A stretch of 64,000 nucleotides of DNA, from NCBI GenBank assembly GCA_903872345.1, contig CAIQKM010000200.1:1-64000 (forward strand), given 5' to 3'. Of the stretch, positions 15,997 through 59,649 are shown one piece after another (position 1 is the first letter of the stretch; each line of letters starts with the position of its first letter). Source of the stretch: an uncultured Verrucomicrobia subdivision 3 bacterium (GTDB taxonomy: Bacteria > Verrucomicrobiota > Verrucomicrobiia > Limisphaerales > UBA11358). The notes under the pieces were generated by a model, which was given only the letters and a program-made list of their open reading frames with translations, was not told the DNA's origin and made no database searches. The translations under genes and the position numbers were made by a program.

Positions 15997-16109
15997 GTTT
16001 CAAGGTTTCAGGTTGTAATGTATGGATTAGAATGGGAACAACGGTTCGCGTTTTTTTTAACGTGGAATTGAGTCCACATTAAAACCGGGTGAAAAATACG
16101 GTAGAGTCT

Positions 16110-37554: not shown

Positions 37555-38480
37555 AGGTTTGTCTCCTCAAATTTCAGTTTTAAATATCGGGCGCTCGCGG
37601 GCGCGGCGAAGGCATCCGCCTCCTCCAATAAAATCGGGATGCCCGGCCTTACTGACCGGATCCATTGCAGCACCGGGGCATAGCTGAGTTGCCCGCTGCC
37701 GGCGGGGACGGTTTTCAGTCCGCCCCGCTCCTGGATGAAATCTTTCGCATGTAACACGGCCACCTCCGGCCCGAGTTGATCGAACGCCTCCGCCACGAGC
37801 CGCCGCTGGTGCGACACATTTCCCGTGTCCAGCAGGTTCACCGGGTCCAGCACCACTTTCAGGTGCCGCGAACGGAGTGTGTCCAGGACGCGGCGCATTT
37901 TGGCGGTGGATGAAACGGTGTGGCTGGTGACCGCCTCCAGGCCGACGCAGACATCCAGTTCCTCGGCGAGGGCAACCAGCGGTTCCAGACTGGTCAGCAG
38001 GGTTTGAAACGCGGATTCATCATGGTTGGCCGGATGCGGCGAATAGTCGGGGTTGACGGAACCGCTTTCCAGGGCCACCAGGCGGCACCCGAAATCGCGC
38101 GCCACTCGCAGGTGGTCGCAGAAGAATTGCAACAGACCGCTACGCGTTCGGAGATCCGGGTGCAAGGGATTGATATAACACCCCAGCACGGCGATCTCCA
38201 CGCCCTGCCAGCGAAAGGCCTGACCGATATCCCGGGCGAACTCTGAGGTTAGATCGCCGGGTGCCAGGTTCAGTCCGGCAATTGCCTTGTTGAGTGCGAG
38301 TTGCACGCCCCCAAAGCCGGCGGCGGCGATGCTGGTCGCCAACGTTTGCACCGGTTGGCGGCCAAAGTCGTGAGCCCGTACCCCCAGATTAAGACGTGGG
38401 GCACAGGTCGGTCGGACATTAGCCATGGCGATTTGCGGTGACCGTTGCCGGTCCACTTGGCTGGAGGTTGAAAGGTTCAT
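37551..38480 (-). CDS. Xylose-isomerase-like TIM-barrel sugar isomerase/epimerase
   Basis: A 309-aa AP-endonuclease-2/xylose-isomerase-like TIM barrel starting at ATG 38480, with an ATGA overlap to the upstream gene. Metal-binding candidates are E in VALESGSVNPD, E in VCVGLEAVTSH, D in KVVLDPVNLLDTGN and E in PILLEEADAF. There is no signal peptide. It could interconvert uronates or keto-sugars released in the cytoplasm. Some members of this fold act as lyases on 3-keto-glycosides, which is of interest given the DUF1080 and oxidoreductase pair at 3098-5349. Confidence 0.8.
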   Translation of the reverse strand: MNLSTSSQVDRQRSPQIAMANVRPTCAPRLNLGVRAHDFGRQPVQTLATSIAAAGFGGVQLALNKAIAGLNLAPGDLTSEFARDIGQAFRWQGVEIAVLGCYINPLHPDLRTRSGLLQFFCDHLRVARDFGCRLVALESGSVNPDYSPHPANHDESAFQTLLTSLEPLVALAEELDVCVGLEAVTSHTVSSTAKMRRVLDTLRSRHLKVVLDPVNLLDTGNVSHQRRLVAEAFDQLGPEVAVLHAKDFIQERGGLKTVPAGSGQLSYAPVLQWIRSVRPGIPILLEEADAFAAPASARYLKLKFEETNL

Positions 38481-43000: not shown

Positions 43001-43248
43001 GCTTCGGCGCGCCAGTCCGTTTCGTTAAGGCGTACTTTAAAACCTTTAACCCAACCGTAGCGGCTGCCGGGGAATACCGCGATGGCATTTTTGATTTGGG
43101 CGATGGCGAAGGTCTGCGCCGAGCGAGTGTATGGCAAACCCTGATCCTGCGGCGGCACCGGCAAAGCGTTGGTTTGGGAGAATCCCGGGTGTCCGGCCAG
43201 GGTTGCCAACATGCCCAGAACGGGCAGGATTTTTTTGCGGGGTATCAT
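40078..43248 (-). CDS. Exported heparinase II/III-like polysaccharide lyase (large form)
   Basis: A 1056-aa secreted protein with a signal peptide (KKILPVLGMLATLAGHPGFS). The N-terminal ~100 residues look like a copper-amine-oxidase-N-like or beta domain (WVKGFKVRLNETDW). An (alpha/alpha) toroid follows from about 240 (GVYPRVLFSPQDVPALAARV), then a heparinase II/III beta-sandwich with the signature GAGHHHADAGMFHFSGLGVD carrying a likely catalytic His. Lyases of this fold cleave uronic-acid glycans by beta-elimination, leaving unsaturated ends for GH105. It is distantly related to the lyase at 45201-47783. It is 3 nt downstream of the esterase gene. Confidence 0.82.
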   Translation of the reverse strand: MIPRKKILPVLGMLATLAGHPGFSQTNALPVPPQDQGLPYTRSAQTFAIAQIKNAIAVFPGSRYGWVKGFKVRLNETDWRAEAVWHDGKVLVPAAFAGVLELQSVNPAPAPAGLADRWVYTLDLPPTAPPVITLAGKPYIDLAASARTKRLKTSLLPRGLLLISSSEPSLDKSDSNRLDNVITLFDSPEKFADPDIAARWIPTLRHQGIWTNYVKVTPEQWQTLTGPETVWPATPKSAYDFSGFDKKLLGSAVPPPGVYPRVLFSPQDVPALAARVRQSKLGHKSLIEMQYLFAQSWWNTNTSDGQVFQKLASGNLTGLAWPDDVAPQQVATINTAQMFRGEKPGIFNTHIAYVPECLTDMALYCLLTDDDVHGRQTAAAIASYYRLREPLLDQWNALSDSEFGSDPLDGNGSSTAWRGMHGLVAHMNLGLALDFGGKWMTAAEKDLMRRVIAKATYGRRAYGEDTTIRFRDVNWVGWDLPQFLALTAIEGLPGFDREAWECGRDTVRAFCEWGIDDAGVVFESNGKTPGSFQFITLSMVSMARRGDNLFGHPHWRKLLVGQAQMTSPDGRVTVNSGTQYDPYSRQFLSLQLTDELKTFYPRERLADYLLTKATEPADQAVNEYNRGWVIQNFNANAYQRNVAGIQRLRLPSPTYPGFVPGVLYDSDFTPTRRSELNLPLDFDAPVQGVFSSYSDRTTNAVWINMMVRPNHYLGAGHHHADAGMFHFSGLGVDWFTQSPFDQVYDGNYYNLVQVDGISEPVSLPADHILGWNAAAKYLGATSQREGAAGSAELTYAYSYRWLTQPPQEWTDHLKGLGWEVEPSPDILKIFAGTARYKMRPWWLTANYANYLPTCRAPFNPMQHVFRTVGLVRGRHPYGLVVDDVRKDSATHLYQWTGMLNGGVWQADVPGLANNQIILAYRSGDPDLANGTARPAITPVAGEPLLLVCGLGLQASHDPAQPLIQVQRSTGPADRNGKPQYYDRLVINQRSEAVHFRVLLLPFHAGEPLPAIVAEAGANDASLKWPQQADDIHFAAGTGEQTHVQVLRADREVLTSK

Positions 43249-43251
43249 GCT

Positions 43252-44202
43252 TCAATGCGAGGGGTTTGGGGCCGGCGGCCATTTGGCCTTCCACGCGGGC
43301 GGGTCGGATATGGTGAGGTTGGATTCGCCGGAGAAATATCCGAGGGAGGTTAAAAAAGCGTCCCCCCGGCGCAGGGCATCCACCACCACCTGTTCGGAGC
43401 ATTTGTAATTGGGAATAAGGAAGGCATGCGGCAAGCCCGGTAGCAAAGCCAGATCGCAGCGGTTGCCCGCCTGTGTCATGGCGTCCGCAAATTGGCGCGA
43501 TTGCTCCGGGGAAATAACGGTGTCGGCCAATCCATGGATACAGAGAGTTGGCGGTAAACCGGGACGGACATGGGCCAGGGGAGAATAGTCATCGGCCAGT
43601 GCTTGCCGGCGCGCGGGGGTTGCCCCGGTGAATCCCGGCACCAAATGGCTGAACTGGCTGTGTCCCAAATCCAGGCACGGATTATACAAAACCAAGGCAT
43701 CCGGGCGCGCGCTGATGCTTCGGTCATCCGCCGGAAAATCAAAGCCGTCCAATGTTGCCACAGCGGCGGCGAGATGCCCGCCGGCGGATTCGCCCACGAG
43801 GGCAAGGCGGTGCGGATCCAGTTTCAATTCGGCAGCGTGGCCTCGTAGATACCGCAGGGCGGATTTGCAGTCGGCAATGCTGTCGGCCATGGTGGGACCG
43901 CCCGGTTTCACCAACCGGTATTCCACCACAAAACTCGCGGCACCCCGCGCCGCCGTATACCGGGCCAGGGGAAAAAACGATTCGCAATTACCGCCGGTCC
44001 AGCCGCCGCCATGAATCCACACCACGGCGGGCACGGCGGTGTCCGTCCGTCCCGCTGCTGGAAACTCATAAATCTTTAAATTGCCGGTCGCCGCGTGACG
44101 GTAAACCAATTCCACGGGCGGCGGCTGTTGTAACAAGCAGCCGAAGGGCAGGGCGGCGGCCAAAGTCAGCGTCATCGGCAATTGTTGTAGTCCAGACTTC
44201 AT
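43252..44202 (-). CDS. Exported alpha/beta-hydrolase esterase
   Basis: A 316-aa esterase of the BD-FAE/HSL-like alpha/beta-hydrolase group. ATG 44202 gives a signal peptide, possibly a lipoprotein (LAAALPFGCLL). The oxyanion HGGG sits at 64-67 in VVWIHGGGWTGG, the nucleophile is S139 in VGESAGGHLAA, the Asp is probably in HGLADTVISPEQS and the His in PGLPHAF. It likely removes acetyl or other acyl groups from the target polysaccharide. The gene lies 25 nt after the pseudopilin stop and 3 nt before the lyase gene. Confidence 0.85.
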   Translation of the reverse strand: MKSGLQQLPMTLTLAAALPFGCLLQQPPPVELVYRHAATGNLKIYEFPAAGRTDTAVPAVVWIHGGGWTGGNCESFFPLARYTAARGAASFVVEYRLVKPGGPTMADSIADCKSALRYLRGHAAELKLDPHRLALVGESAGGHLAAAVATLDGFDFPADDRSISARPDALVLYNPCLDLGHSQFSHLVPGFTGATPARRQALADDYSPLAHVRPGLPPTLCIHGLADTVISPEQSRQFADAMTQAGNRCDLALLPGLPHAFLIPNYKCSEQVVVDALRRGDAFLTSLGYFSGESNLTISDPPAWKAKWPPAPNPSH

Positions 44203-44227
44203 GGGGCGGAAAATCAGCGCTCTGCCG

Positions 44228-45040
44228 TCAATTGGGGCTATCCGTGCCATTCCAATAGGAGTTCCAATTCGAACGCTGGCCCTGGGCCGGCCGACCCACC
44301 GGTATGCGACCCGAGGCCTGGCCGGACGGGTCGGGTTTGCGGGCATCGGCGTGCCCGTCGAAATACAGCGTGACGGCCAGTCCATCCACGAAACAATAAT
44401 AGTTGTTCAGCGACCAGCTTGGCACTTGGATGGATTTGCCGTTATGGCCGAAAAGTGGCGGATAATAACACATGCCGTCCACATCCGTCCAAAAGCCGGT
44501 GATGGGGCCACCGGGGGGAGTGGGCGCATTGTTTAGGTCCGCTACCGAACTGTCTATGATCAGCGAGGTGTCGGAGGGCTTTAATGTGCTGCTTAACTTG
44601 TACAAACCGACATTGGGCGTCTGGGTCGGATCCCACGGGATATTCCGGTTGGCCACATACGTGGGATAATCCTTGCCCCCGGCGAACTGCCGGGCGGCGG
44701 GGCAGGTGGTGAAGCCATTGGTGAAGGCGGTGCTGTTGGTGTTCATGCCGAAGCAGTTGAGCCAAGCGTCTACGTACGGTCCCACGCCGTTGTAATTGCC
44801 CATGCGTCCCGACATCACGAAGGCGTACGGCAGCATATCGCGGTTTTCGCCGGTGTACATTTGCACCGCGATGCCGCATTGTTTTAATCCATTGATACAC
44901 CGCACCCGCAGGGCGGTTTGCTTGGCGGCGGACAAGGCGGGCAGCAGCATGGCCGCCAGGATGGCGATAATGGCAATGACCACGAGCAGTTCAATCAGGG
45001 TAAATCCGCCGGGCCGGCGTGAAAATTTTTTGGCGTTCAT
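44228..45040 (-). CDS. Type II secretion pseudopilin-like protein (copy 2)
   Basis: 270 aa from the ATG at 45040 (an in-frame GTG at 45064 is less likely). The class III signal [20 protein letters not shown] has cleavage after the second G and E at mature position 5. The body ends with the H-X9-DG-like [17 protein letters not shown], matching the C-terminus of the 25838-26680 paralogue. It heads the operon that ends with the regulator and is preceded by operator site H. No T2SS machinery genes are nearby. Confidence 0.9.
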
Positions 45041-45200: not shown

Positions 45201-47783
45201 TCAACGGACGGTCACCGGGTTCTGGCCCGGGCTCTCAACGGTGATTTGCGTGCGGCCACTGGAGGTGATATGCAGGTCAATGCAGTTGGTCTGACCGGCA
45301 GCGGTAACCGTCACCTTGGTGGGGCCATCACTCCACTGGGTATCGGGTAACGGATCACCTTCCCGCAACGGCCAGAGCAGAATTTTAAACTGTGGCGCCA
45401 CTGAGCGGCTGCCAATGACCAGTCGTCGGTCCAAGCCAAACGAGCGTGCTCCGGCCAGGACGGTGGCGGGGGCTTCGGGCACGAGCGTATCGCGCCGTTC
45501 AAAGGTTTCGAGGCGGAAGGAGGGGCGGGACTGATAATCATGGGGCCGGGCGGGAGTGCCGCAATCCAATACCCGCACGAGTAGTTCGCGGTCGCCGCGG
45601 CGCGGTTTGGGCAGGCCGGTATCATCCAATGGCACGGTCGCATCACAGAGGATCAGATCATTTCCGGCCGCGCGGGCCAACGCCGTGTCCGGTCCGGTTT
45701 GCATCAGCCATTCGTATAAGCGTTCCTGGGCATCTTTTTGGATGTCGTCCACCACCACCAGCCAGGGGTGAGGTGACCGCACAAACGCGACGGTGCGAAA
45801 CGCGCGCTGAACCGGATTATGCGGCAGCCGCACCGGCCAGGAATCTTCATCCCACATGCGCGGATCATGGGCTTGAAAGCCCTGCCAATGGGCCACCACG
45901 GCCGGGCGCTGATCTTTTTCCGGCACTTGCCCCGCCAACTCCCGTTGAAACTGCCGGGCATCGCTCAAGTAACTTTCCCAGCGTGAAAATTTAAACCGTG
46001 CGAACGTACCGGCTGGTTCGGTGCGGATCTGCTTCGGCCACCACCAGTCATAGGCGGATTTTGCATCGCAGGCCGCCACCAGCGCCCAACCGGCGTCCTG
46101 ATAGCCCAGCCACTGGCCGGGTCCCGGCCAGAAACCCTGGCCCAGTCCGTCAATCAAAACGCCGTTGTGATGCCGGGTTTCAACCGAGCGAAAGTTGTCC
46201 TTGGCCCATAGCCGTCCCAGAGCGGAAAAAGTGAAGGCACCGCGATCGGCATGTTCATGGCTGCTGCCGACGGAGTCCGTGCGGCATTCGAATTGCAGCA
46301 CGGCCGCCTCAGGATTCCAACCGCTGTGCGCGATGAGCGAACTGCGTTGCGAATCAAACAGCGCCAGCGGCAGGTGCAATTTGGGGGCAGCCGTCGGATC
46401 CAGCGTGATGGGCGCGTCGTTCGCCCATAAGAGTGCTTCCAGCAAATGAAAATTACCGCTAAATGGCTGACCGCGTCCCCCGTTGACCACCACCCGCCAG
46501 AGCAGGTCAATCTTGGGATCGTCCGGGTAAAAATATTTCCACATCGCCATGGTCCAGATGGCCGGGCCTTCATCGCCGCCATCCCCGTGACTGGTCCAGG
46601 ACTGGGGCAGACTGCGTTGAAGTTGTTCGACATCCGCAGTGCCAGTCAGTTGTCCGGGTGCCATGGCGGAAGGTTCCATGGTATGCAGATACCAGTCGAT
46701 CATCCCGCGCAGATGGTTCTGCGTGAGCAGGTTTTCCCCCCGGCGGGCGGCCGCGACGACAAACGGATTGGCCCACACCAGGCCAAACTGGGTGTAACCG
46801 ACCGCCTCCGTGGAAAATCCCCGCTCGGAAATCCCGTAGCTGAAATAATCCCGGGCAATGTCCACGCCCATGCGGAAAACGCGCGGGTCATAGCCCTCCT
46901 CGCCTTCGATGGCCAGCGCCAATAGCGGCTGACTCAGCCCCACCGCCACCCAGTTCCAATTGCGGAAATGATGCGGCAGTCGCGCGCCCAGCCAGAGTTC
47001 GCCATGGGTGACTTTGGCGATGACGCGCCGCACTTGGGCGCGTTGCGGGTCGGTCATGAAATTGAACGCAAAGTCGTACGTGTATCCCAGAATTTGATAG
47101 CCCACCAGATCGCGGATTCCCTGGTCGCTGCTCCAGTCGCCGGTCACCGGGCCGTTGACTTTTACCCGCCAAACATCATCGCCCAAGGGTTGCGCCAGGG
47201 TTTGGTCCACCGCCGGTTCAGCCAGGGCGGCGTAATTGGCCAAGGCGGTGCCGACTTTTTGGCCGCGAGCCACGTCATTCGCAATCAAAGCATCCAAAGC
47301 TTCCATGGCGAACGCCTCGATGAAGGGTTGGTAATGACCGATGCCCGGTGGCTTGCCGTTCTTTTCCGCCAGCAAGAGTTTGGCGGCGGGCATGTCGCCG
47401 CCGGCCAGCGCTTCGTAAAATCGGGTGCCCCAGGCGCCGGGCGTTTTGATCGCCTCCGTCACCCGTGCACGTAAATTCAGCAGGAGTTGGCGGCCCATTT
47501 CCGTTTCCGCAACTCGACGGCGCAAGTCTGGCAGTTCGGCCGGACTGATCAGGATGCGCGGATGAACTCCCGGCGGGGGAACGGCAACCAGCCGCGACGA
47601 CGCAAAACCTTCGGCGTTCGTGGATACCTGTACCGCCGGTGAAGCCGGCCAGGGATAGGCACCATTGAGCACCGCGTCCGCGTCCAACTCGTCTGGCAAG
47701 TGTCGCGGTGTTTCCGCTGCGAGGCCAAGGCTGGCGGCGAACAGAATACTAAGTGCGGCCGGGATGCAGTTGAAGTATTTCAT
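45201..47783 (-). CDS. Exported heparinase II/III-like polysaccharide lyase
   Basis: An 860-aa protein with a signal peptide (IPAALSILFAASLGLAAE). An N-terminal linker precedes an alpha toroid starting at about residue 70 (GVHPRILISPAELPDLRRRV). A heparinase II/III-type beta-sandwich carries SSHEHADRGAFTFSALGRLW and ETRHHNGVLIDG, with His residues in the places expected for catalysis and metal binding. It is the last gene of the operon starting at 59568, one nt after the GH67-like gene. Uronan lyase activity fits with GH105 in the next operon. The exact substrate (pectic, glycosaminoglycan-like or algal) is undecided. Confidence 0.85.
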   Translation of the reverse strand: MKYFNCIPAALSILFAASLGLAAETPRHLPDELDADAVLNGAYPWPASPAVQVSTNAEGFASSRLVAVPPPGVHPRILISPAELPDLRRRVAETEMGRQLLLNLRARVTEAIKTPGAWGTRFYEALAGGDMPAAKLLLAEKNGKPPGIGHYQPFIEAFAMEALDALIANDVARGQKVGTALANYAALAEPAVDQTLAQPLGDDVWRVKVNGPVTGDWSSDQGIRDLVGYQILGYTYDFAFNFMTDPQRAQVRRVIAKVTHGELWLGARLPHHFRNWNWVAVGLSQPLLALAIEGEEGYDPRVFRMGVDIARDYFSYGISERGFSTEAVGYTQFGLVWANPFVVAAARRGENLLTQNHLRGMIDWYLHTMEPSAMAPGQLTGTADVEQLQRSLPQSWTSHGDGGDEGPAIWTMAMWKYFYPDDPKIDLLWRVVVNGGRGQPFSGNFHLLEALLWANDAPITLDPTAAPKLHLPLALFDSQRSSLIAHSGWNPEAAVLQFECRTDSVGSSHEHADRGAFTFSALGRLWAKDNFRSVETRHHNGVLIDGLGQGFWPGPGQWLGYQDAGWALVAACDAKSAYDWWWPKQIRTEPAGTFARFKFSRWESYLSDARQFQRELAGQVPEKDQRPAVVAHWQGFQAHDPRMWDEDSWPVRLPHNPVQRAFRTVAFVRSPHPWLVVVDDIQKDAQERLYEWLMQTGPDTALARAAGNDLILCDATVPLDDTGLPKPRRGDRELLVRVLDCGTPARPHDYQSRPSFRLETFERRDTLVPEAPATVLAGARSFGLDRRLVIGSRSVAPQFKILLWPLREGDPLPDTQWSDGPTKVTVTAAGQTNCIDLHITSSGRTQITVESPGQNPVTVR

Positions 47784-47784
47784 T

Positions 47785-49509
47785 TTATATATTCAATTTT
47801 TCCGGTTGGGCAAACTGCTGCCGGTACCCCTCGATGGAGGCGTCCAGTCCTGGGACGACCGGAGTTCCGGGCAGGTTAAAATAGCGGCCCTCGTAAAGCG
47901 AGGCACACCCGGGCAAGTGTTGCAGGGCGCGATATTCGTGCCAATAATGCTCATATTGCGCGGCGGCCGCCCCAAATTCCGTCCGGTCGCCCTTGGCACC
48001 GGCAATTAAGGCGCGCCATCCCTCATGGATGATGCTGAAGAGCAGCCGGCCATAGGCGACGGAAACCGTTACCACTTCCCCGAGTTGCCGGTCCGGCCAG
48101 GCCAATTGCTCCGCCAAATTTTGAATCTGCTCCCATAGCCGCACGGCGTGCAACTTTTCCGCCAGCGCTTCGGCTTCGAGTCCGCGGGTCCGCAAATAGT
48201 CCAAAACAAATTTCAGTTGAACTTCTCCGCCCAGCCGGTCATCCCGCATCCAGCAAACCGTGGGCAACACCGATTCAGCCAGTGCGGCATCAAATACCGC
48301 GCAATGGCGGCCCAGTAGAACTGCCTGCGCGGAAAGCAGGCATAGTTGGCGAAACTCCTCCACCGCCTCATCTGGCAAACTCAGCCGCTCCCGGGCATAT
48401 TCCCGGAAATAAGCCGATTCCGGGCGGTTCGGATTCTTGACAAATCCGGCCAGCACATAGGCGTTCAAGTCCGGCCACAATTCATTTTGGAGGTAGGGGC
48501 CGTACCAGCCGCCGCCGCGTGACCAGGAATAAACCCCCACGATTTTCGGATTTGCCAGCCAGTCTTTCAAACCCGCGGGGCGGAGGTTTTCCTCAAACCC
48601 ATTGATCACACCGTCCATCACATAATTCGGGTACGCGCCCTTGCCTTCATATTCGCGCTGGCACTGGACTTCAATGATCTGCGGGTGCTCGCCCTGGCCG
48701 AGGCATTCATTTACTTTGACCCGCCGCCAAAAATCCAGCGCGGTGTGCTTGATGGAAAACGCCAGCCGGGGGTGAGGTTCAACTTCATTGACCACCTCCA
48801 AATAATGATCCGGCCGGGCGTGCAATTTGTCCGGGAAAATATCCCAAGTGCGGAAAAACACCTGTTGGCCATGGCGAACACAGATTTCCTCCCGCAGGAA
48901 CCGCAACAATTTTACGTAGGCATCCACTTGTTGCCGACTCCAGCGAGGTTCGGCCGGTTCCTCTCCCGCCAAGGTTTCGGCGTACAAATAATCCGGCGTC
49001 CAGGCCGGACCGAGGCGCGGAATCGGGCTGTTGCCAACATGGTGCGGCGTGTCGAACAGATAGGTTTCGCCCACCCGGATGATATAGCCATCCACCTGAG
49101 GAAAACGCTTGTAGAGTTCCGCAAACAGAATGGCGTGCAGTTCGAGGGTGCGCGGATGATCCAGCCGGATGCGCCCGGTGGCGGGGTCGCAAATTTCTTC
49201 TTGGAAATGCTCAACCAGCCGCCGGGGGAGCACAAACAGATCCAGATGATAAAAAACTTTCAACCCCTGCGCTTTCGCCCGGGCGATTTCCCGTTCAATG
49301 CCCGGCGTGAAGGCGTCCAGCCACGCGCGTTCCGGCGAACCCGGCGGAAAACAATCCACGCCGGTTGCGGCGAACGTGGCAATGCAGTTGATATGTTTGA
49401 AGACCTGGCCGTTGAAGCCATAATCAACCAAATGCGCCGGATCACTGAACCGGGTCTGGAACGGCGGTTCACCCGGGTTGTGGTGCACCATGTCGAGAAT
49501 GTATCTCAT
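47785..49509 (-). CDS. Putative GH67-like TIM-barrel glycosidase
   Basis: A 574-aa cytoplasmic protein without a signal peptide. The segment SIKHTALDFWRRVKVNE followed by IIEVQCQREYEGKGAYPNY recalls the conserved core of GH67 alpha-glucuronidases (QIKNGPMDF, then MEFQI..EY.G). Upstream, VDGYIIRVGETYLFDTPHHV and VNEVEPHPRLAFSI supply acidic candidates. Overall similarity appears low and the usual GH67 N-terminal domain is missing, so it may be a separate family of the same fold. A role in removing a glucuronic or galacturonic acid side chain fits the locus. It sits between GH43 and a lyase gene. Confidence 0.55.
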   Translation of the reverse strand: MRYILDMVHHNPGEPPFQTRFSDPAHLVDYGFNGQVFKHINCIATFAATGVDCFPPGSPERAWLDAFTPGIEREIARAKAQGLKVFYHLDLFVLPRRLVEHFQEEICDPATGRIRLDHPRTLELHAILFAELYKRFPQVDGYIIRVGETYLFDTPHHVGNSPIPRLGPAWTPDYLYAETLAGEEPAEPRWSRQQVDAYVKLLRFLREEICVRHGQQVFFRTWDIFPDKLHARPDHYLEVVNEVEPHPRLAFSIKHTALDFWRRVKVNECLGQGEHPQIIEVQCQREYEGKGAYPNYVMDGVINGFEENLRPAGLKDWLANPKIVGVYSWSRGGGWYGPYLQNELWPDLNAYVLAGFVKNPNRPESAYFREYARERLSLPDEAVEEFRQLCLLSAQAVLLGRHCAVFDAALAESVLPTVCWMRDDRLGGEVQLKFVLDYLRTRGLEAEALAEKLHAVRLWEQIQNLAEQLAWPDRQLGEVVTVSVAYGRLLFSIIHEGWRALIAGAKGDRTEFGAAAAQYEHYWHEYRALQHLPGCASLYEGRYFNLPGTPVVPGLDASIEGYRQQFAQPEKLNI

Positions 49510-49526: not shown

Positions 49527-51146
49527 TCAGTCCAGCGGCTGATAATCAAAATAATCGAATTCCGCCCAAATGGAGCGGTCCAATAAATCCTGGCAACAGA
49601 GCCCCCAGAAGGTGCCGGTGAAATTACTATGTGGGGAAACCCAGTCACCCAGCATGGTCGCCTCGAACACGCGGTCAACCCATTCCCATTTTTGCCCGTC
49701 GAGCGACCAAGCGAAACGGAGTTCGGCGCAGTGATTCTCCATACGCAGAAACAGCTTACCGCCGGCCGCGAGCGGTAATTCGGCCACTTCCAGCCGGCTG
49801 CCCTTGGTGTTTTCGGAGGAGATTACCCCCAGTTTGATTTTTCCCGACCCCGCCGCCGTGACCCGGAAATAGTGGTAATGGAAGCGGTCGTAGTAGGCGA
49901 TGAGGCCGGCCGCCTGTTTAAAATGGGTCGGTTGAAAGCTCAGGCAAGTTTCGGCCCGCGCATGAAACTGTTGCAACCGGCGGGCGAGCAGACTCTGGTC
50001 AAACGTGGACGCCAGCGAATCGCGTCCTCGCAAACTCAGCCAACCCGGCCGGCGGATCAGGGAGCACCAGCTTTCATCGGCCGGCTCCCGCAAAGTTTGG
50101 AAATGAAGGTTGGGGGTGGCCTCGGCAAAATCATCCCTTAGTTTTTCCGCCGGCCAAGGATGCGCTGGTAGCGCCACCGGCACGGTTTCCGCCGGCGAGT
50201 TTCCGCCGTCCGCCAGCCGGGGCCAGGCGTCCGTGTCCCAGCGGAGCTTTTGGAGGCAGGTTTCCCGGCCCAACGGGGCCGATTTGTTTTCCTCCCGATC
50301 CATTACCAGCCGCCCGGGACGTTGCAGCGGCCGGTGGCAAAGATGCACTGTGAACCATTCACCCGCTGAAGTTTCAACGAAACAACCGTGACCGGCGGAT
50401 TGGAGGGCGAGCCCGTCTTTTTGAAAGGACGTCAGCAGGGGATTTTGCGGGTGCAATTCATAGGGGCCGTGAATGGTTTTGCTGCGGCAGACACTGATCG
50501 CATGACGCAGGGCGGTGCCGCCTTCGGCGGTGATGAGATAATACCAGCCGTCCTTTTTCAACAGGTGCGGGCCCTCGGTGATGCCAATGGCGCTGCCTTC
50601 CCAGATCTTTATGGCATCCCCGGTCAGCCGCTGGTTGGCGGCATCATATTCTTGCAAGATGATCCCGTCAAAACGGCGGGGGGTGAATGCTTCGCCCATC
50701 TGCATTTGAACGATGTACTTCCGGCCATCGTCGTCGTGAAACAAACTGGGATCAAACCCGATGGAGTTCAGATAAACCGGTTCGCTCCAGGGACCCGTAA
50801 TCGTCTCCGCCGTCACCAGATAATTCGGTGTGTCAATCACCACCCCGGCGGCATGGTGACGGACATTCGTGTACACCAGCCAGAATTTGCCGTCGGCATG
50901 AGTCAGGCACGGCGCCCAAACGCCGCCGGAATTGGGGCAGCCTTTCATGTCGAGTTGGGAAACCCGGTCCAGCGCCCGGCCCAGCAACCGCCAGTGAGCC
51001 AGATCCCGCGAATGGTGAATTTGCACCCCCGGGAACCATTCAAATGTGGAGGTGGCAATGTAATAGTCGTCCCCAACCCGGCAGATGGAGGGGTCGGGAT
51101 TGAAGCCGGTGAGCACCGGGTTTTTGATTAATAGCGGTGAATTCAT
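49527..51146 (-). CDS. GH43 beta-xylosidase/alpha-L-arabinofuranosidase
   Basis: A 539-aa GH43 enzyme with no signal peptide. The five-bladed propeller has the catalytic triad D18 (GFNPDPSICRVG), D132 (GFDPSLFHDDDG) and E191 (ITEGPHLLKKDG). A C-terminal concanavalin-like domain at about 330-535 (DESWCSLIRRPGWLSLRGRD) is typical of subfamily 11/12-type enzymes that act on xylo- or arabino-oligosaccharides. It starts within the ATGA overlap with the transporter gene. It is related to the second GH43 at 53713-55245 but has diverged, so the two may act on different linkages. Confidence 0.92.
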   Translation of the reverse strand: MNSPLLIKNPVLTGFNPDPSICRVGDDYYIATSTFEWFPGVQIHHSRDLAHWRLLGRALDRVSQLDMKGCPNSGGVWAPCLTHADGKFWLVYTNVRHHAAGVVIDTPNYLVTAETITGPWSEPVYLNSIGFDPSLFHDDDGRKYIVQMQMGEAFTPRRFDGIILQEYDAANQRLTGDAIKIWEGSAIGITEGPHLLKKDGWYYLITAEGGTALRHAISVCRSKTIHGPYELHPQNPLLTSFQKDGLALQSAGHGCFVETSAGEWFTVHLCHRPLQRPGRLVMDREENKSAPLGRETCLQKLRWDTDAWPRLADGGNSPAETVPVALPAHPWPAEKLRDDFAEATPNLHFQTLREPADESWCSLIRRPGWLSLRGRDSLASTFDQSLLARRLQQFHARAETCLSFQPTHFKQAAGLIAYYDRFHYHYFRVTAAGSGKIKLGVISSENTKGSRLEVAELPLAAGGKLFLRMENHCAELRFAWSLDGQKWEWVDRVFEATMLGDWVSPHSNFTGTFWGLCCQDLLDRSIWAEFDYFDYQPLD

Positions 51147-53716
51147 TTGGAGGCGGCCTCCCGCCCGGAAGGTTTGGTGTCATACACGGTCAACCCCGCG
51201 AGACTGTGCTTGGGCGGGGGCGTACACAGGCTGACCAGGTAGCCGATGCCAACGCAGGCGATGACGGCGCCGGGCGTGTAAAAATACCAGTGCACGGTCG
51301 TGTCGTATTTTAACCAGACTGCCACCGCGATGCTGGAGATGGCGCCGCTGAAAGCACCGATGGCATTGGCACGTCGCGTGTAGGTGCCCAGAATGTAAAC
51401 GCCGAGAAAGCCGCCCCCGAGCATGGCAAAGAGTTCGTTCCAGGTTTGAAACAACGAGCGCTGGTTCATGGTGGCCATGTACAGGGCGCATAGCGTGGCC
51501 GCCGTGCCCGCCACCAACGAAGCAATCCGCATCACGCGCAGCCGTTCACGATCCGCCACATTCTTCTTCAGTTTGCGATAAAAATCCTCCGTAAACAAAA
51601 TGGCCACGCTGTTCATACTGCCCGCGAGCGCCGACATGGCGGCCGCGAACAGCGACGCGATAATTAAACCCGCAATGCCCACAGGCAGCCGTTGCACAAT
51701 GTAGAGCGGGATGATCTGGTCATTCGTCATTGCGGGATCCAATTCGCCCGGATGCTGATGAAAATAGGCGAAAACGGAGATGCCCGCGAAATTCACGGCG
51801 AAGGAGATGAAAACGCTGAAACACAAAAACATCAGCGCCAGCTTGCGCACATCCTTCAAAGGGGTGGCGAAAACGCGTTGCACGGTGGGCTGGTCGGCGG
51901 AAAACGCCAGTTTGTTGAACAGTGGGGTCAGAATGAGAATCCAGACTACGGGCATGGTATAATCGAGCGACCAGATGCCGAGATCCAGTTTGTGAAAGTG
52001 CGTGTTGACCTCCATAAAGCTGCTCCAGCCATGCGGCAACCCGGTGATGGCCAGGATGACGATCAGGCTGATGCCCAGCACCATCGTGATGCCTTGGATT
52101 ACTTCCGTGAGCACCACGGCTTTCATGCCGCCCTTTGAAGAGTAGATAGTCGTCACCAAGCCCATGAGTAGCACGCTCGCAAAAACGCTCAGGCCGGTGA
52201 CCGCCGCAATCGCGAGGGCGGGGAGCAGCAGCACCATGTTCATGCGCCCGAACGTTTGCAGGGCAATCGCCTGGGCGCTGGCGATGAAGCGCAGCGAAGG
52301 ATGAAACCGGCGTTCCAGATATTCAAAGGTGGAGGTGATCTCCAGTTTGCGGATAAGCGGATACAGGACAAACGCCTCTAGGAAAAATAGGGGGATCAGC
52401 ATCAGTGCCGGCAGCGCCCAGATCATGCTGGTACGGAAAGCCAGCGCCGGAATGGCCATGAAGCTGATGCTGCTGGCCGCGCTGGCGAACATGCTAATGC
52501 CCGCCATCCACCAAGGAATTTTTCGGTCGCCCAAGGCAAATCCTTCGCTGCCCGTTTGCTCGCGAGTAAAATACAGGCCCACAAACGCCACCACGCCAAA
52601 ATAGATAAAAAGCCCCGCATAATCGGCCCAGCGCAGGCTTTTGACCGTGCGTTTAATGACCACATCGTAGGCGGATTCCGTCCCGGACGCACTCTGGCCC
52701 AGCAAGGTCAATCGGCCATGGTTGATCGCCACGCAAACTGCGAGCGGTTCCGGCAATTGCCCCTTTTGCACCCAGGTATCCGTCACATTATGATAAATCT
52801 GGATGCTCCGGGCGCCGGGGCCACTTTCCAGCGGCCATGGGCTCCCGGTAACGGTACTGGTAATCCCGCCCGCCACCCCGGCATGTACTTGGCCGGTCAT
52901 AAAAACCGCCGGGGCTGCCACGGCTTCCAGCAGCGGCGTCAAATCACGCCACCCGGAAGAGGTCGTGCCGTCAATCACATGCCAGCGATAGGCCTGCGCC
53001 GAAGCCACCGGTGTATAAATATTTTTGCCGCCGGCTTGGGACAGGGTAAAACCGCCAAACACATGAACGTCATTGTAAAAACAAATCACGCCCGGGAGTA
53101 ACCGGCCTTCGCCGGGCATCGGGGGCAATTCCTCCCACCCGGCATTCGTGGTCGCGCCAAAGTCGTAACGATACAGCTTTCGCGAAGCGGAGCGATCCTC
53201 GGCGGAGGTGAGCCCGCCGATAACATATAGCTGCTTTTTTGCCTGATCTTCAAAAAACCCCGCGCTCGCCAGGGCGACCGGTTGGGGTAGGGCGGGCAAT
53301 TTGTTTTCGCGCAAATGGCCGTCCCGCCAGTCCAGCGAGATCACTTTGTCGGTCAGCCCGGTTTTCGTCAGACCGCCGGCGAGAAACAGGCGCGTTCGAA
53401 CGCTGCCGGCGTCCGTCAGCGTGCCGCTCACACAGGCGGCATAAGCCAGGCCCCCGGTCAACGCGGTTTTCTGCCAGCCTGCCTCCGTTTGCACAAACAC
53501 CTCGGCGCTCGGTTCGCCATCGGTTGTCAGCCCGCCGCCGACAATGAGGGTGCCGCCCGCTTGGCCGGCAAACATGCCCGGCCGGTTCACCGGCGGAGCC
53601 GCCGTCTGTTTGGTGAAGGCAAAACTGTCCTGGTTGGTTTGGGCCAAAGCCGCGCGGGCCGCCAGCAAGAGCGTGGTTAGCGCGTAAAAAAAGTTTCGAA
53701 CAAAGTCACGGTTCAT
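51143..53716 (-). CDS. Kelch-domain/sodium:solute symporter fusion transporter
   Basis: An 857-aa fusion. A signal peptide (YALTTLLLAARAALAQ) is followed by a kelch beta-propeller at about 40-350 (GTLIVGGGLTTDGEPSAEVF, KKQLYVIGGLTS, NDVHVFGGFTLSQAG) resembling the N-acetylneuraminate epimerase/mutarotase group. Then comes an SSS-family symporter with about 13 membrane helices from residue 375 (GLFIYFGVVAFVGLYF, GDRKIPWWMAGISMFASAAS). The propeller would lie on the outside (periplasmic) face and may mutarotate or bind the sugar before uptake. It is the only importer in the window. Its 4-nt overlaps with the two GH43 genes indicate a dedicated uptake system for their substrates. Confidence 0.9.
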   Translation of the reverse strand: MNRDFVRNFFYALTTLLLAARAALAQTNQDSFAFTKQTAAPPVNRPGMFAGQAGGTLIVGGGLTTDGEPSAEVFVQTEAGWQKTALTGGLAYAACVSGTLTDAGSVRTRLFLAGGLTKTGLTDKVISLDWRDGHLRENKLPALPQPVALASAGFFEDQAKKQLYVIGGLTSAEDRSASRKLYRYDFGATTNAGWEELPPMPGEGRLLPGVICFYNDVHVFGGFTLSQAGGKNIYTPVASAQAYRWHVIDGTTSSGWRDLTPLLEAVAAPAVFMTGQVHAGVAGGITSTVTGSPWPLESGPGARSIQIYHNVTDTWVQKGQLPEPLAVCVAINHGRLTLLGQSASGTESAYDVVIKRTVKSLRWADYAGLFIYFGVVAFVGLYFTREQTGSEGFALGDRKIPWWMAGISMFASAASSISFMAIPALAFRTSMIWALPALMLIPLFFLEAFVLYPLIRKLEITSTFEYLERRFHPSLRFIASAQAIALQTFGRMNMVLLLPALAIAAVTGLSVFASVLLMGLVTTIYSSKGGMKAVVLTEVIQGITMVLGISLIVILAITGLPHGWSSFMEVNTHFHKLDLGIWSLDYTMPVVWILILTPLFNKLAFSADQPTVQRVFATPLKDVRKLALMFLCFSVFISFAVNFAGISVFAYFHQHPGELDPAMTNDQIIPLYIVQRLPVGIAGLIIASLFAAAMSALAGSMNSVAILFTEDFYRKLKKNVADRERLRVMRIASLVAGTAATLCALYMATMNQRSLFQTWNELFAMLGGGFLGVYILGTYTRRANAIGAFSGAISSIAVAVWLKYDTTVHWYFYTPGAVIACVGIGYLVSLCTPPPKHSLAGLTVYDTKPSGREAASK

Positions 53717-55245
53717 GAGTGGGCTTCCTGCGGTTGATAGTCAAACCAGTCATAATCGGCGGGTCCGGCGCAGGGCTGCCCGTTGCCGGAGGCATACAAT
53801 CCGATCATGACGCCATTATATCCGCCTGTGACCTCCGTACCGAGATAACGGGTGTTAACCCGGGCGATCTCTTGAAACGGTTCGCCATGGTGGGAATAGC
53901 CAAAGGCATAATGCATCCGCGTGCCGATGATGCGCAATTCCACCGGCCCGGGCGGCAGAGGTATGACGGCCGCCGTTTGCTGAATTAACTCCAAGTGGTA
54001 GCGCACGACCAGCACCCGCCGGCCCGCGCGGTTGGTCACGCAAAAGTCGTAGTGATGCTCATTCGTCATCAGCAGGGTCATACCCGCCTCTTCATTTGGT
54101 TCCAGTGGGATGAATTGCATTCGCGTGGCGGCGATGAAATTAAAATGTTGCTGACGCCGCGCCACCAGGGTCGGCGAGGCCAATTCGCTCAGGCCGGCCG
54201 CCATCCCCCGCAGACGCAGAAATCCCGGCCGCTCGGTCAACGAATAATCGGCGGCATCCGGATTGCGCAAATGCACCCAGGACAAACCCAATTGCTCCGC
54301 CGCAAAATCATCGCGATTAGCAGTTGCCGACCATGGATGAGGCGGTAGTGTCTGGGCAACCACGGTTTCCGATACCGTGCCCGACCCATTCACCACCGGC
54401 CAGCCATCTCGCCACGTCACCGGGGTCAGGCAGGTTTCGCGGCCGAGCGTGTGAATGTCGCCCACCGTTTTCCGAAACGCCAGATGTACCATCCACCAGG
54501 AGCCGTCGGCCGCCTCCACCAGGTCGGCATGGCCCGTGCCGTGGATCGCTTCATAGGCATGGCGATTGGACAGGATGGGATTATGCGGGCACGATTCATA
54601 TTCGCCCCAAATATCACGGCTGCGGGCAATCGCCACCATGTGTCCATAACTAGTGCCGCCTTCCGCCGTCAGCAGATAATACCAGCCGTCGCGCTTGTAA
54701 ATGTGCGGTCCCTCGACATAGCTGCCCCCGCTGCCACGCCAGAGCATTTTGGGTTCGGTCAGCCGGCGGCCGGTTTGAATCTCCAGTTCGCTCTGATAAA
54801 TCGCCCGCTCCATCTTGAACGTCAGTCCGCGATTGGACTGAAAATAAACCCGCCCATTATTGTCAAAGAATAGCGAGGGATCAATTCCGTTTTGATCGTA
54901 CCAAACTGGATCGCTCCACGGCCCGGCGGGGTCAGTGGCGGTGACATAAAAATTGCGGTAAGAACCCGCGTTCACCAGAGTTGTAATCAGGTAGAAAACG
55001 CCCTGATGATGGCGTAGTGTGGGCGCATAAATGCCATCCGAACAACGCACGCCCCCCAAGTCCAACTGTGAGCGGCGGGTCAGCACATGCCCCAACTGCC
55101 GCCAGTGAATCAAATCCCGGCTGTGCCAGAAGGGGATCCCGGGAAAATATTCAAAACTGCTGTTCACCAGGTAGTAATCATGGCCCACCCGGCAAATGCT
55201 GGGGTCGGGATAAAAACCGGGGATGACTGGGTTTTTATAGTTCAT
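53713..55245 (-). CDS. GH43 alpha-L-arabinofuranosidase/beta-xylosidase (second copy)
   Basis: A 510-aa enzyme starting at ATG 55245 (an ATG at 55254 would add three residues). The propeller motifs give catalytic candidates D14 (GFYPDPSICRVG), D123 (GIDPSLFFDNNG) and E178 (YVEGPHIYKRDG). A C-terminal concanavalin-like domain includes SWVHLRNPDAADYSLTERPG. No signal peptide is seen. Its start lies inside the 3' end of the GH42 gene and its stop overlaps the transporter start, so translation is probably coupled. Confidence 0.92.
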   Translation of the reverse strand: MNYKNPVIPGFYPDPSICRVGHDYYLVNSSFEYFPGIPFWHSRDLIHWRQLGHVLTRRSQLDLGGVRCSDGIYAPTLRHHQGVFYLITTLVNAGSYRNFYVTATDPAGPWSDPVWYDQNGIDPSLFFDNNGRVYFQSNRGLTFKMERAIYQSELEIQTGRRLTEPKMLWRGSGGSYVEGPHIYKRDGWYYLLTAEGGTSYGHMVAIARSRDIWGEYESCPHNPILSNRHAYEAIHGTGHADLVEAADGSWWMVHLAFRKTVGDIHTLGRETCLTPVTWRDGWPVVNGSGTVSETVVAQTLPPHPWSATANRDDFAAEQLGLSWVHLRNPDAADYSLTERPGFLRLRGMAAGLSELASPTLVARRQQHFNFIAATRMQFIPLEPNEEAGMTLLMTNEHHYDFCVTNRAGRRVLVVRYHLELIQQTAAVIPLPPGPVELRIIGTRMHYAFGYSHHGEPFQEIARVNTRYLGTEVTGGYNGVMIGLYASGNGQPCAGPADYDWFDYQPQEAHS

Positions 55246-57265
55246 AGGAGACACGTTGTAGCATGGCCGTGCCGAAGGGTTTCAACTCCACCGTGCTGGC
55301 GAAGGTTTCACTCCCATTGAGCGACTCGTAACGTTCCGCCAGCCGGGCGGTTTGAGTTTCGCGCGTGTAATTGATCAGGTGCAAATATTCCTTTCCCTCT
55401 TTGAAAGTTTTTATCGATTCTACATGGGGTGAGCTGCTGGCGGTCAAATTCGGTAAAACCTTGGCGTTCGTCAGAATGCGAGTGAATAATTCCCGGAGAA
55501 GTTCGACCGACGGGACCGTGGCAATGTAATAGGCGGTTCCTTTGCCAAACCGGTTTGCCGTGATGGCTGGTGTGCCCTCAAACCAGAGATCTGTGTATTG
55601 AAATAGTGGCTGGGCCGTCGTCAGTTTCACCAGCTCAAATAACAGGGATGCCTCATAGCGCCCTTGGGCAAAACCGCCGTCCAACGGTGCCAAGCCGGTG
55701 GTATCCTTGAATTTTAAGGCGTTTTGCTCCTCAATTTCGAGGCCGCACAATTCGGTCAAACCGGCCGGCAGCGTGGTTCGGTGAAACCCATTGTCAAAAT
55801 TACGCAACCCGGATTGCACGGTAACGACCAGCGTTCCGCCGGCCTGTACGAATTGGTGCAAATGGGTGGCCCGCGTTTCATCCATCAGCACCAACGCGGG
55901 AGCGATGACTACTTTATAGCGTTGCAGGTCGGCGAGCGGTTGAATGATGTCGGCGTTTACATGCTGCTCAAATAACGCCCGGTAATAAAGGTAGAGATGC
56001 CGCAGATACCGGAAATCCGGGTGGGTTCGACCGTCGTCCAAGGCCCAGTCGCAGTCGAAGTCCCGGATGATCGCCACGTCCGGGCAGGGCAGGGCGGCGG
56101 CCAGTTTGGGCGCGACCGCTTGCAGGTCGCGGATCGTTTGCTGGATTTCAAAGTAACGCCGCCGCGGTTTGCCGTCACATTCCAGCACCGCCTGGAGTAA
56201 ATGTTCACCTCCTGTGGAAAACTGGCGCCAGTGAAACCAAAGCACGGCTTCCGCGCCATGGGCGATTTCCTGCTGCGTCCAAACCCGGATCATGCCCGGC
56301 TCCGGGAGCTGACGGGGACGAAAAGTTCGGCCGGTTTGCGCCTCGGTCACCCAGAAGGGCGCGTGCCGGAGACCGCGTATGATGGACAGCGCCAGACTGG
56401 CCATGGCCGGGTGATAAGGAACGTCGTCCCGGTTCCCGTATTCATTTTCCAGCGTCCATGACAACGGATAATTATCCACCGCCACGACGTCCAATTGCGC
56501 CCCCAGCAGGTGCAAATCGAGCAGGTAGAGAAAGCCGCTCGAACAAATGTTATGGGTCACGATTTTCTCCGGCGAGACGGCTTTGAGGCAGCCGGTTTGC
56601 AGCCGGGCATAGTCCAAAAAGGCGTCTGAGAAAAACCGGTGAAGATCCAGCATGGCGGAAGGATTGTGTCCGGGCCTGGGCAAAACCACTTGCTCAAACC
56701 GCTGATAACTCTGGCTCCAAAAGGCCGTACCCCAGCGCCGGTTTAATGCTTCCACCGTGCCAAATTTCGCCAGGAGCCAAGCCTGAAAGGCCCGCCGGCA
56801 GGTCTCACAATAACAATGGGGCTGTTCGGCCATGAATTCATTGTCGAGTTGGTAGCCAATCACGTTGACATTGTCCTTGAAGCGTTCCGCGAGCGCCGTG
56901 ACAATTCGCCGGGTGTGTCCGTGATATTCCACGTTGTTCACGCAATAGTGACGGCGCATGCCAAATTCCCGCCGCCGGCCATCCACGCCCACCGGATAAA
57001 TCTCCTGACACTGGTCCATGAGCCATTTGGGCGGAGCCGCCGTGGGGGTGCACAACAGGGAACGGATGCCATGATCGGCCATGATGGCGACCGCTGATTC
57101 GAGCCAGTCAAATTCAAATCGTCCCTCCTCCGGTTCCAGCCGGCTCCAGGCAAATTCGCCCAAGCGCACCAGGTTAAAACCGGCCTCCTGCATCAGCCGC
57201 GCATCGGGTCTGATTTCGGCCGGATCGAGCTGTTCCGGATAATAGGATGCGCCAAAGTATTTCAT
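55235..57265 (-). CDS. GH42 beta-galactosidase
   Basis: A 676-aa GH42 enzyme beginning MKYFGASYYPEQLDPAEI. Acid/base E143 is in GYQLDNEFMAEQ and nucleophile E308 in FWVTEAQTG. A zinc-type cysteine cluster is present (C108, C151, C153, C156 in CYCETC). The A-domain barrel is followed by a trimerisation-type B domain and a short beta C domain. No signal peptide is present, so it acts on imported galacto-oligosaccharides, for example beta-1,4-galactan side chains. It overlaps the upstream unknown gene by 4 nt. Confidence 0.93.
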   Translation of the reverse strand: MKYFGASYYPEQLDPAEIRPDARLMQEAGFNLVRLGEFAWSRLEPEEGRFEFDWLESAVAIMADHGIRSLLCTPTAAPPKWLMDQCQEIYPVGVDGRRREFGMRRHYCVNNVEYHGHTRRIVTALAERFKDNVNVIGYQLDNEFMAEQPHCYCETCRRAFQAWLLAKFGTVEALNRRWGTAFWSQSYQRFEQVVLPRPGHNPSAMLDLHRFFSDAFLDYARLQTGCLKAVSPEKIVTHNICSSGFLYLLDLHLLGAQLDVVAVDNYPLSWTLENEYGNRDDVPYHPAMASLALSIIRGLRHAPFWVTEAQTGRTFRPRQLPEPGMIRVWTQQEIAHGAEAVLWFHWRQFSTGGEHLLQAVLECDGKPRRRYFEIQQTIRDLQAVAPKLAAALPCPDVAIIRDFDCDWALDDGRTHPDFRYLRHLYLYYRALFEQHVNADIIQPLADLQRYKVVIAPALVLMDETRATHLHQFVQAGGTLVVTVQSGLRNFDNGFHRTTLPAGLTELCGLEIEEQNALKFKDTTGLAPLDGGFAQGRYEASLLFELVKLTTAQPLFQYTDLWFEGTPAITANRFGKGTAYYIATVPSVELLRELFTRILTNAKVLPNLTASSSPHVESIKTFKEGKEYLHLINYTRETQTARLAERYESLNGSETFASTVELKPFGTAMLQRVSYEL

Positions 57266-59568
57266 TTTTTCGGAAATCGGAGGATCTTGGTTGCCCCGGC
57301 GGTGATGGTTTCCGTCCGTCCCCCCAACAGATAATTTTCCGGCAAAGCTTGGCGAGCCGCCCGGCGGTTCTCTGCAAAAATCCGTACCGTGGCGTCCACC
57401 GGGGTAGGATTGCGCAGTTGCACAATCAGTTCGTTGGCCGTATTTCCGGTGATTTCCGCCAATATATTGTCAAACGCCACCACCAATGATTGATCCGGTT
57501 GCACATACAGCCCCGGTATTTCGATGGCGGTGAGCATGAGGGATGTTTCCGCCCACGTCGTCATTTGTAGCGTTTCGCCGATGCGTTCGGCGCCCTCCCA
57601 GTCCGTGAGGTTTACCCGTTCGCACATCCAGCCCGGTTTGGCCGTGCCCAGCGGTCGCCGAGGGTGCGGCAGGTATTGCGGCAGGCCAAAGGCGATATCC
57701 CGGAGCAAATCGAGGTGAAAACGGTCGCCCGTCGCGCGAAACAGTTTTAACAAACCCAGCCCGGAAAAAGTGCAGAGACCCGGCGCGGAATGTTTGTTTT
57801 GCGTGTTGGCATAGACGGAACCGGTGGTGCGGATGCCGGCCTGCGCGAAGGTGGATTGCGGCGGGAATTGAAAATCATACGCGACCACCCAGGTGGAAAA
57901 CTGGCGGACGGTCTCCGCCGCCCGCCGCAGCCAGACCCGCCGGCCGGTGCTTTCATAGAGGGCCACATAACTTTCAATGAGGGCATACCAAGATTCCGAA
58001 TCTGGATTTTGCAGCGCATCACCTGGACCACCGCAACTGAGGCCTTTGACCGTGTATTCCTGGTAAAACCGCTCGCCAGCCTCGGCGGCAACCTGCGCAT
58101 ATTTCGGTTCGCCATAATAATCCGCCGCCAGCAACAGCGCTGCCGGTATGATCGCGCCGCTGGTCGAGCCCCCCACGCAAATTTCCCCGGTGATCGAATG
58201 GACAAACTGACCAAATTGACCGTGGGTTCGCCACAGTTTCACAAGCGCATCCACGACGCGTTTAAGCCCCCGGTGCCAGGCCGGTTTCACCGGCAGGCCG
58301 AGTTGTTCCATCAAATGGAACTGTTTAAGAATGAAATAAACCCCGTCGCCGCTCTTGCGGATGAGGTGCCAGTTACCCGTGTGGGGCTTGCGAATATCCC
58401 CGCCGATCCACTCGGTCCCGTTGCGCCCGGCATCCCAGAAAAAACCGGCGGGCGCGAGGCCGTTTGGAAACAGCCAGTCGAAATTTCGTACCACTCGCTG
58501 GCGGGTTTCCACCCCGCCGGCAAACAGCAGCGGATAGGTGCTGATCATCCCGCCCGTCCAGCCGATCTGCCAGTCCTGTAAAAAATTCTGGCGCGGGCCG
58601 ATGGAATAATACCCGTGCTGGGGCACAAAATTATCCCGGTTGAACTTTTCCTCCTGCAAGTCCAAGCACGCAGAATAGGGGAGTACGGGATGCGCTGCTG
58701 CCGGGGTGGTCAGTAATTTGCGTTGACCGGCAAATCGGTCAAACAAGGACTGAAGTTTAGGTGCCGAGAAAAAATCCAGCCGGAAGCTGAGTTCCACTGT
58801 TTCACCGGTCTTAAAGTCATGCGGCCGGTCTTGGGAGGGGAATTCCGCATCGCAAATGCGGTAATGATGCAGTTCCCGCACTACCGGCGTCATCAGCCGG
58901 ATCACCGCCTGTTCCCGGTTCCGCGATTCCTCAATGCCCAGCCCATAGTCGCCCAGGGAATTTCCCTGCCGGGTAAAAAGGAGAAATCCGCGCCGGGCGG
59001 TTGCATCGTGAAAACCAATCGCCGGCACCGCCATGCTGCCGCTGCGTTCCTGAATCCGTGACACCCCTTCGCCAATGTTTAACCGCGGGACATCCGTGAT
59101 GATGACCGGTTTGTCTGGGCCAATATCCTGGACAAAGTACAGCTTGGGCGAGTAGGGGATTTTACGCGCAAGAAACCGGTTGCCGTTGTACACCGCCGCC
59201 GGCATGAGGACATAATTGGCCGGCGACCAATGATTGAAAACCAATTCCACGCCAATGGCCGCCTGTGGCAATTGGCCGGACCGGCATTGTAAACGAATCG
59301 TGATGTCCAGCGCTTTGCTCCCAGACACCGGCACAACTTTGGTGCTGATGGCCCACCGGGAGCCTGACAGCTTGACGGACGCAGGTTTGCTCCCAAGAGG
59401 GAATTCCGCCCGGCTTACCGGCGAGTTATGCCGGTCATAGTCATACTGGTTGAAAACCAGTCGCCCGTGGCAGTCCCATTGGTCCATCTGGCGGGCCATT
59501 TCCGCCCCGCCTTGCAATAAAGCATACGGTTGGGCGGATGAGGCGGGCGCTGCCGGATCAAACCGCAT
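57262..59568 (-). CDS. Unknown (alpha/alpha)6-type putative glycosidase
   Basis: A 768-aa protein starting at ATG 59568, behind a GGAGG Shine-Dalgarno with 7-nt spacing. An in-frame TTG at 59592 is rejected for that reason. No signal peptide. Residues about 1-290 are beta-rich, and 300-690 look like a six-hairpin toroid (GWTGGMISTYPLLFAGGVE, GGSTSGAIIPAALLLAADYY). A short C-terminal beta domain resembles the C-terminus of catalytic toroids (GNTANELIVQLRNPTPVDAT). It fits no family that can be named with confidence. Aspartates and glutamates in FFWDAGRNGTEW and WYALIESYVALYES are active-site candidates. It is the first gene of the operon that includes GH42, GH43 and the transporter. Confidence 0.65.
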   Translation of the reverse strand: MRFDPAAPASSAQPYALLQGGAEMARQMDQWDCHGRLVFNQYDYDRHNSPVSRAEFPLGSKPASVKLSGSRWAISTKVVPVSGSKALDITIRLQCRSGQLPQAAIGVELVFNHWSPANYVLMPAAVYNGNRFLARKIPYSPKLYFVQDIGPDKPVIITDVPRLNIGEGVSRIQERSGSMAVPAIGFHDATARRGFLLFTRQGNSLGDYGLGIEESRNREQAVIRLMTPVVRELHHYRICDAEFPSQDRPHDFKTGETVELSFRLDFFSAPKLQSLFDRFAGQRKLLTTPAAAHPVLPYSACLDLQEEKFNRDNFVPQHGYYSIGPRQNFLQDWQIGWTGGMISTYPLLFAGGVETRQRVVRNFDWLFPNGLAPAGFFWDAGRNGTEWIGGDIRKPHTGNWHLIRKSGDGVYFILKQFHLMEQLGLPVKPAWHRGLKRVVDALVKLWRTHGQFGQFVHSITGEICVGGSTSGAIIPAALLLAADYYGEPKYAQVAAEAGERFYQEYTVKGLSCGGPGDALQNPDSESWYALIESYVALYESTGRRVWLRRAAETVRQFSTWVVAYDFQFPPQSTFAQAGIRTTGSVYANTQNKHSAPGLCTFSGLGLLKLFRATGDRFHLDLLRDIAFGLPQYLPHPRRPLGTAKPGWMCERVNLTDWEGAERIGETLQMTTWAETSLMLTAIEIPGLYVQPDQSLVVAFDNILAEITGNTANELIVQLRNPTPVDATVRIFAENRRAARQALPENYLLGGRTETITAGATKILRFPKK

Positions 59569-59649
59569 CGGCGAGCCTCCAGTCAATGCCAAAAGACAAA
59601 GGGTTACAGGTGAGAGCGGTCATGATTTCTGGCAAGCATAGTCGGAAAA

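Follow-up and report, generated by a model that had tools for sequence, protein, structure and literature searches.

A putative GH67-related glycosidase family, mostly from Verrucomicrobiota, with active-site residues of GH67

Introduction

We begin by asking to which enzymes a single protein of the window (the whole 64,000-nucleotide stretch of DNA that was analysed) is related. The first-pass annotation had described this 574-residue protein of a polysaccharide operon as a candidate for a distant GH67-like family, possibly a new uronidase or other glycosidase: it carries two short motifs that recall the GH67 alpha-glucuronidases, misses their typical N-terminal domain and has no clear overall similarity to them. 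The question is whether the likeness of the motifs goes beyond chance and, if so, which reaction the protein may carry out. To our knowledge, few enzymes are known for alpha-linked uronic acids, and they belong to GH4, GH67, GH115 and GH138.

Results

The open reading frame is real. It is located at 47785..49509 on the minus strand (the strand had not been given before), starts with ATG and encodes 574 residues that are predicted to form a (beta/alpha)8 barrel and a C-terminal helical region; as read from the sequence, it has no signal peptide. Both motifs are present, IKHTALDF as part of SIKHTALDF (residues 252-260) and VQCQREYEGKG (residues 281-291). The typical N-terminal domain is indeed missing: the barrel opens with a strand at residue 3, and the GH67 chains enter the fold alignment from residue 142-152 onwards. 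The remark on overall similarity is right at the level of a single sequence, where the protein has no match in Pfam at E<=1 (and so none to PF07488, PF03648 or PF07477), in NCBIfam at E<=10 or, by phmmer, in the PDB at E<=10. A search of the PDB sequences with a profile of the family returns chance matches only.

Seven genes, closely packed or overlapping, run on the minus strand from 59592 down to 45201, and this gene is the sixth of them; their products agree with the proposed polysaccharide operon. The operon opens with a 776-residue protein (57262..59592) for which Pfam, NCBIfam and the PDB give no match and which recurs beside the family in seven other loci. It is followed by a member of the GH42 beta-galactosidase family (55235..57265), a GH43 with a GH43_C2 domain (53713..55254), a kelch propeller fused to a sodium:solute symporter (SSF, 51143..53716), another GH43 with a GH43_C2 domain that is beta-xylosidase/arabinosidase-like (49527..51146), the GH67-related gene and, next downstream, a heparinase II/III-like protein of 860 residues (45201..47783), all on the minus strand. 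This last protein has an apparent signal peptide and is a putative exported polysaccharide lyase with weak matches only (NCBIfam HepB at 17.4 bits, where the cut-off is 600, and PDB 8khv at E 0.0027); in several loci it is a conserved neighbour of the family. The same cluster continues downstream in the same orientation with a BD-FAE-type esterase (43252..44385, minus strand), and it includes a GH88/GH105-type unsaturated uronyl hydrolase family protein (35725..37566, minus strand) whose homologues recur near the family.

Several other proteins of the cluster deserve mention in their own right. The kelch propeller at 51143-53716 resembles the N-acetylneuraminate epimerase (NanM) family, and together with the SSF part it is a possible mutarotase-transporter fusion. 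Two large heparinase II/III-like proteins, at 45201-47783 and 40078-43248 on the minus strand, have no Pfam match, and their homologues recur beside the GH67-related gene; they may represent an uncatalogued polysaccharide lyase family. A protein of 1747 residues (10756-15999, minus strand) contains PATR autotransporter-associated repeats and a PKD domain.

The next question is whether the family as a whole is related to GH67. One scan of 84,980 GTDB species genomes provides 22 relatives at 40-76% identity. When the family is compared with 19 full-length GH67 sequences by hhalign, the probability is 91.9% (E 7e-7), and it is 96.6% (E 6e-10) with four intermediates added to the family; the alignment of the two profiles is colinear across about 450 columns, with an identity to GH67 of about 19%. 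None of the controls reaches 1% probability, whether GH115, GH20, the GH67 profile in reverse or any of eight GH67 profiles with shuffled columns. GH115 and GH20 had been named as families to check: at 0.1% and 0.2-0.5% respectively they have no support from the sequence, even though the new family shares the core fold of GH115, and membership in either is rejected at the profile level.

The same relationship is seen from two other directions. When the Pfam model of the GH67 middle domain (PF07488) is run over the phylum, L066 exceeds its cut-off and L067 falls just short of it; each of the two matches the 574-residue protein at E<1e-101. The model matches only 4 of the 26 family members. A profile built from the new family alone, searched against 915 ORFs, ranks the canonical GH67s directly behind the members of the family; unrelated ORFs set in at E 0.58, with two of the GH67s (L071 and L062) level with the first of them or below, and the GH20 decoys at E 4.7 or worse. 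Combined with the fold search described below, these comparisons bear out the distant GH67-like family that had been proposed, and we regard it as almost certain that the family is homologous to GH67. The likeness of the motifs exceeds chance, since the motif residues are invariant in the family, the profile-profile alignment is colinear over its whole length and the controls fail.

We turn to the fold. The AlphaFold model used here was made from the 22-sequence alignment (pLDDT 87.4, pTM 0.89); a model made from the single sequence (pLDDT 39.5) was discarded. The best Foldseek match of the model is the GH67 structure 1gql at E 1.9e-10, and superposition on GH67 structures by VIA-align gives Z 19.6-19.9 with an rmsd of 3.9 A over about 410 residues (for 1k9d, Z 19.9 over 408 residues), so the model has the (beta/alpha)8 fold of the GH67 type. 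GH138 comes second in the fold search: the structure of BP0997 of B. paurosaccharolyticus (PDB 6hzg), compared by fold only, shares the overall fold at Z 18.7 across 470 residues, a longer alignment than that of GH67, with 10% identity. Because this score is so close behind, the modelled fold alone does not separate GH67 from GH138. GH115 (PDB 4c91) has the core fold in common at Z 15.5, and the GH84 and GH20 hexosaminidases have a distant barrel likeness with Z up to 15.9, GH84 superposing, in this comparison of folds, with an rmsd of about 9 A. The GH115 and GH67 families share the core fold, but not the active-site residues (PMC3879575). The new family, unlike GH115, has both the fold and the active-site residues of GH67.

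How far does the likeness extend in the active site? The numbering of GH67 was fixed by PDB sequences and mutant entries of C. japonicus GlcA67A (PDB 1gqi and 1h41) and G. stearothermophilus AguA (PDB 1k9d and 1mqr), where 1h41 carries the C. japonicus mutation E292A, and 1k9e and 1mqr carry the G. stearothermophilus mutations E285N and E386Q, respectively. The roles of these residues as acid, base pair and carboxylate-binding groups we take from general knowledge of GH67 and from the titles of the mutant entries. In a joint alignment, each of R220, K254, D259, E280 and E286 falls in a column that shows no variation across the 19 GH67s and the 31 sequences from the new family plus its intermediates. 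R220 (codon at 48850..48852, this and the following on the minus strand) is at the position of C. japonicus R325, K254 (48748..48750) at that of K360, and E280 (48670..48672) at that of G. stearothermophilus E386, the residue changed to Q in 1mqr. D259 (48733..48735), within IKHTALDF, and E286 (48652..48654), within QREYEGKG, are at the positions of C. japonicus D365 and E393 and are the putative partners of the catalytic base. Since these five residues fall in active-site columns of GH67, the two quoted motifs are the counterparts of the GH67 catalytic-base motifs. The K-x4-D and E-x5-E motifs have near-identical spacing in the two families, the distance from D to E of the base pair being 27 in the new family vs 28 in GH67, and the arginine of the R-T-W/R-A-F strand is found in both.

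The catalytic acid requires more care. Both families have a glutamate after a strand that ends in YIIR in the new family and in FLVK in GH67; these strand ends align, placing R145 (49075..49077, minus strand), R in the new family, at the position of C. japonicus K288, K in GH67. The glutamate follows four residues on in GH67 and three in the new family, where it is E148 (49066..49068, minus strand) in the motif R-x-G-E, invariant in 31 of 31 sequences. An indel blocks a direct column alignment with the GH67 acid, so the correspondence with C. japonicus E292 and G. stearothermophilus E285 is one of position, by which E148 is likely the equivalent catalytic acid. The invariant residues of the family alignment include R145, G147, E148, R220, K254, D259, E280, R285, E286 and G289-G291.

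The two families also differ. The barrel is common to them, and so is much of the helical region at the C-terminus, but GH67 has an N-terminal domain ahead of the barrel that the new family is without; the acid loop reads R-x-G-E-T-Y in the new family vs K-x-x-S-E-G-Q-P-G-P in GH67, and WSRGGGWxGP is found where GH67 has GxDRNWTGH. For these reasons, together with R145 in place of K288 and the few members that PF07488 matches, we label the family GH67-related and do not file it as GH67. The missing domain and the exchange at R145 may have changed the pocket.

The 22 relatives are mostly from Verrucomicrobiota, the rest from Lentisphaerae, Chitinivibrionales, Planctomycetes, Bacteroidota, one MAG labelled Acidobacteriia and one Oscillospiraceae MAG (Firmicutes). 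Of 289 genomes sampled from the phylum, 63 (about a fifth) match the family profile at E<=0.001, a count made up mostly of more distant branches or partial matches. The genome of the window itself contains three copies of the family and two GH115 genes, and no canonical GH67 was found in it. A literature search, beyond whose reach lay most subscription papers, found no description of the family and no paper using terms such as GH67-like or GH67-related. The family is a widespread putative glycosidase family that is uncatalogued as judged by Pfam, NCBIfam and the PDB.

The neighbours in other genomes are varied. In one Bacteroidota locus (L019) the family gene is beside SusC/SusD and a heparinase-like protein, and another Bacteroidota member (L020) carries a signal sequence; the Bacteroidota members are for these reasons likely periplasmic. 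On the Oscillospiraceae contig the family gene is preceded by a GH88 gene and also by a binding-protein-dependent permease. In one genome some 4 kb separate it from a true GH67 gene, and a protein with a glucuronoyl esterase domain is encoded next. The other neighbours, which differ by locus, include GH29, GH78-type, GH31 and GH127 enzymes and sulfatases. Such varied enzymes indicate no single substrate, and the sugar that carries the uronic acid probably differs between members.

Two further observations concern these loci. A homologue of a 380-residue EamA-like transporter is encoded directly upstream of the family gene in L003, L005, L011 and L021, and in L007, L008 and L013 a protein of 364-380 residues from another cluster, with no Pfam match, is found there or one gene away. 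One family member (L029:640-3303, minus strand) has a C-terminal extension with what appears, by eye only, to be a ThuA-type domain.

Beyond the REYEGKG family of the 574-residue protein, taken here as the first branch, more distant branches were noted. A second (L068, L115-L117) has the motifs RIGE(S/A)DG, FRTW, MKYG-x-SDF and REYEG(F/C)G, a conserved C-terminus and an occurrence in many genomes of the phylum. A third (L120:2519-4495 and L121:15037-16686) has (V/L)KNT-x-GDF and WREFSGWNG motifs, and in both genomes a canonical GH67 gene lies some 13-15 kb away from its gene. An 853-residue distant relative (L036:562-3120, minus strand) has a core like the 574-residue protein without the R-x-G-E motif and an N-terminal region with a weak resemblance to the N-terminal part of GH67 (PDB 1k9d, E 0.35). 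This type, the fourth of the branches grouped in the Discussion, is a possible architectural link.

Discussion

What reaction does this active site carry out? We consider it fairly probable that the 574-residue protein is a cytoplasmic, inverting exo-alpha-uronidase that follows the GH67 mechanism and acts on imported oligosaccharides. E148 would protonate the glycosidic oxygen and the pair of D259 and E286 would activate the attacking water, with the carboxylate of the uronic acid held in a basic pocket formed by R220, K254 and R145. The simplest pathway, given a protein without a signal peptide, an exported-looking heparinase-like neighbour and a symporter in the operon, is depolymerisation outside, import and trimming inside the cell. 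Exported lyase- or esterase-like enzymes would release oligosaccharides from plant or algal material, the SSF symporter would import them, the GH67-related protein would remove the terminal alpha-linked uronic acid by the single-displacement route of GH67, and the GH43, GH42 and GH88-type enzymes would then finish the chain.

The closeness of GH138 in the fold search raises another reading, in which the protein is closer to GH138 than to GH67 and is a retaining alpha-galacturonidase acting on pectic side chains. The longer GH138 alignment fits with this, as do pectin-type neighbours at some loci, e.g., the GH78-type rhamnosidase in L122. Yet the fold score of GH67 is the higher one, and the K-x4-D and E-x5-E motifs are kept at nearly the GH67 spacing, whereas GH138 enzymes are retaining and have their nucleophile at a different position; we find this reading unlikely. 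The same low probability is given to a protein that keeps the GH67 catalytic apparatus and accepts a non-uronic substrate in a rebuilt pocket. The change from K288 to R145, the different loops, the loss of the N-terminal domain and the diversity of the neighbour enzymes would all suit such a protein. Against it, the basic residues R220, K254 and R145 are kept without exception in loci that differ widely from one another, and enzymes of acidic polysaccharides (heparinase-like, GH88) recur beside the family.

It could also be argued that this is an ordinary divergent GH67, which any curated database would already hold as GH67, because GH67 is the closest homologous family and two relatives touch the Pfam cut-off. 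A protein that draws no Pfam or NCBIfam match, whose relatives are mostly passed over by the GH67 middle-domain model, that is only about one-fifth identical to GH67 and is without the N-terminal domain makes this quite improbable. The exo-alpha-uronidase reading is the one that we carry forward.

On a wider scale, we propose tentatively, at somewhat under even chances, that the branches form a large GH67-related superfamily of at least four uncatalogued branches with a common catalytic base pair and different alpha-uronides as substrates, i.e., a new uronidase clan. Such a superfamily would bring new uronidase specificities. For the family of the 574-residue protein, the clear prediction of the catalytic residues makes direct assays possible. 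If the exo-alpha-uronidase reading is true, GH67 chemistry is present without the GH67 label, and missed by current annotation, in about a fifth of the sampled genomes of the phylum, distant branches included. This would then account for how uronic acid side groups could be dealt with by some of the polysaccharide-degrading Verrucomicrobiota that have no GH67 gene.
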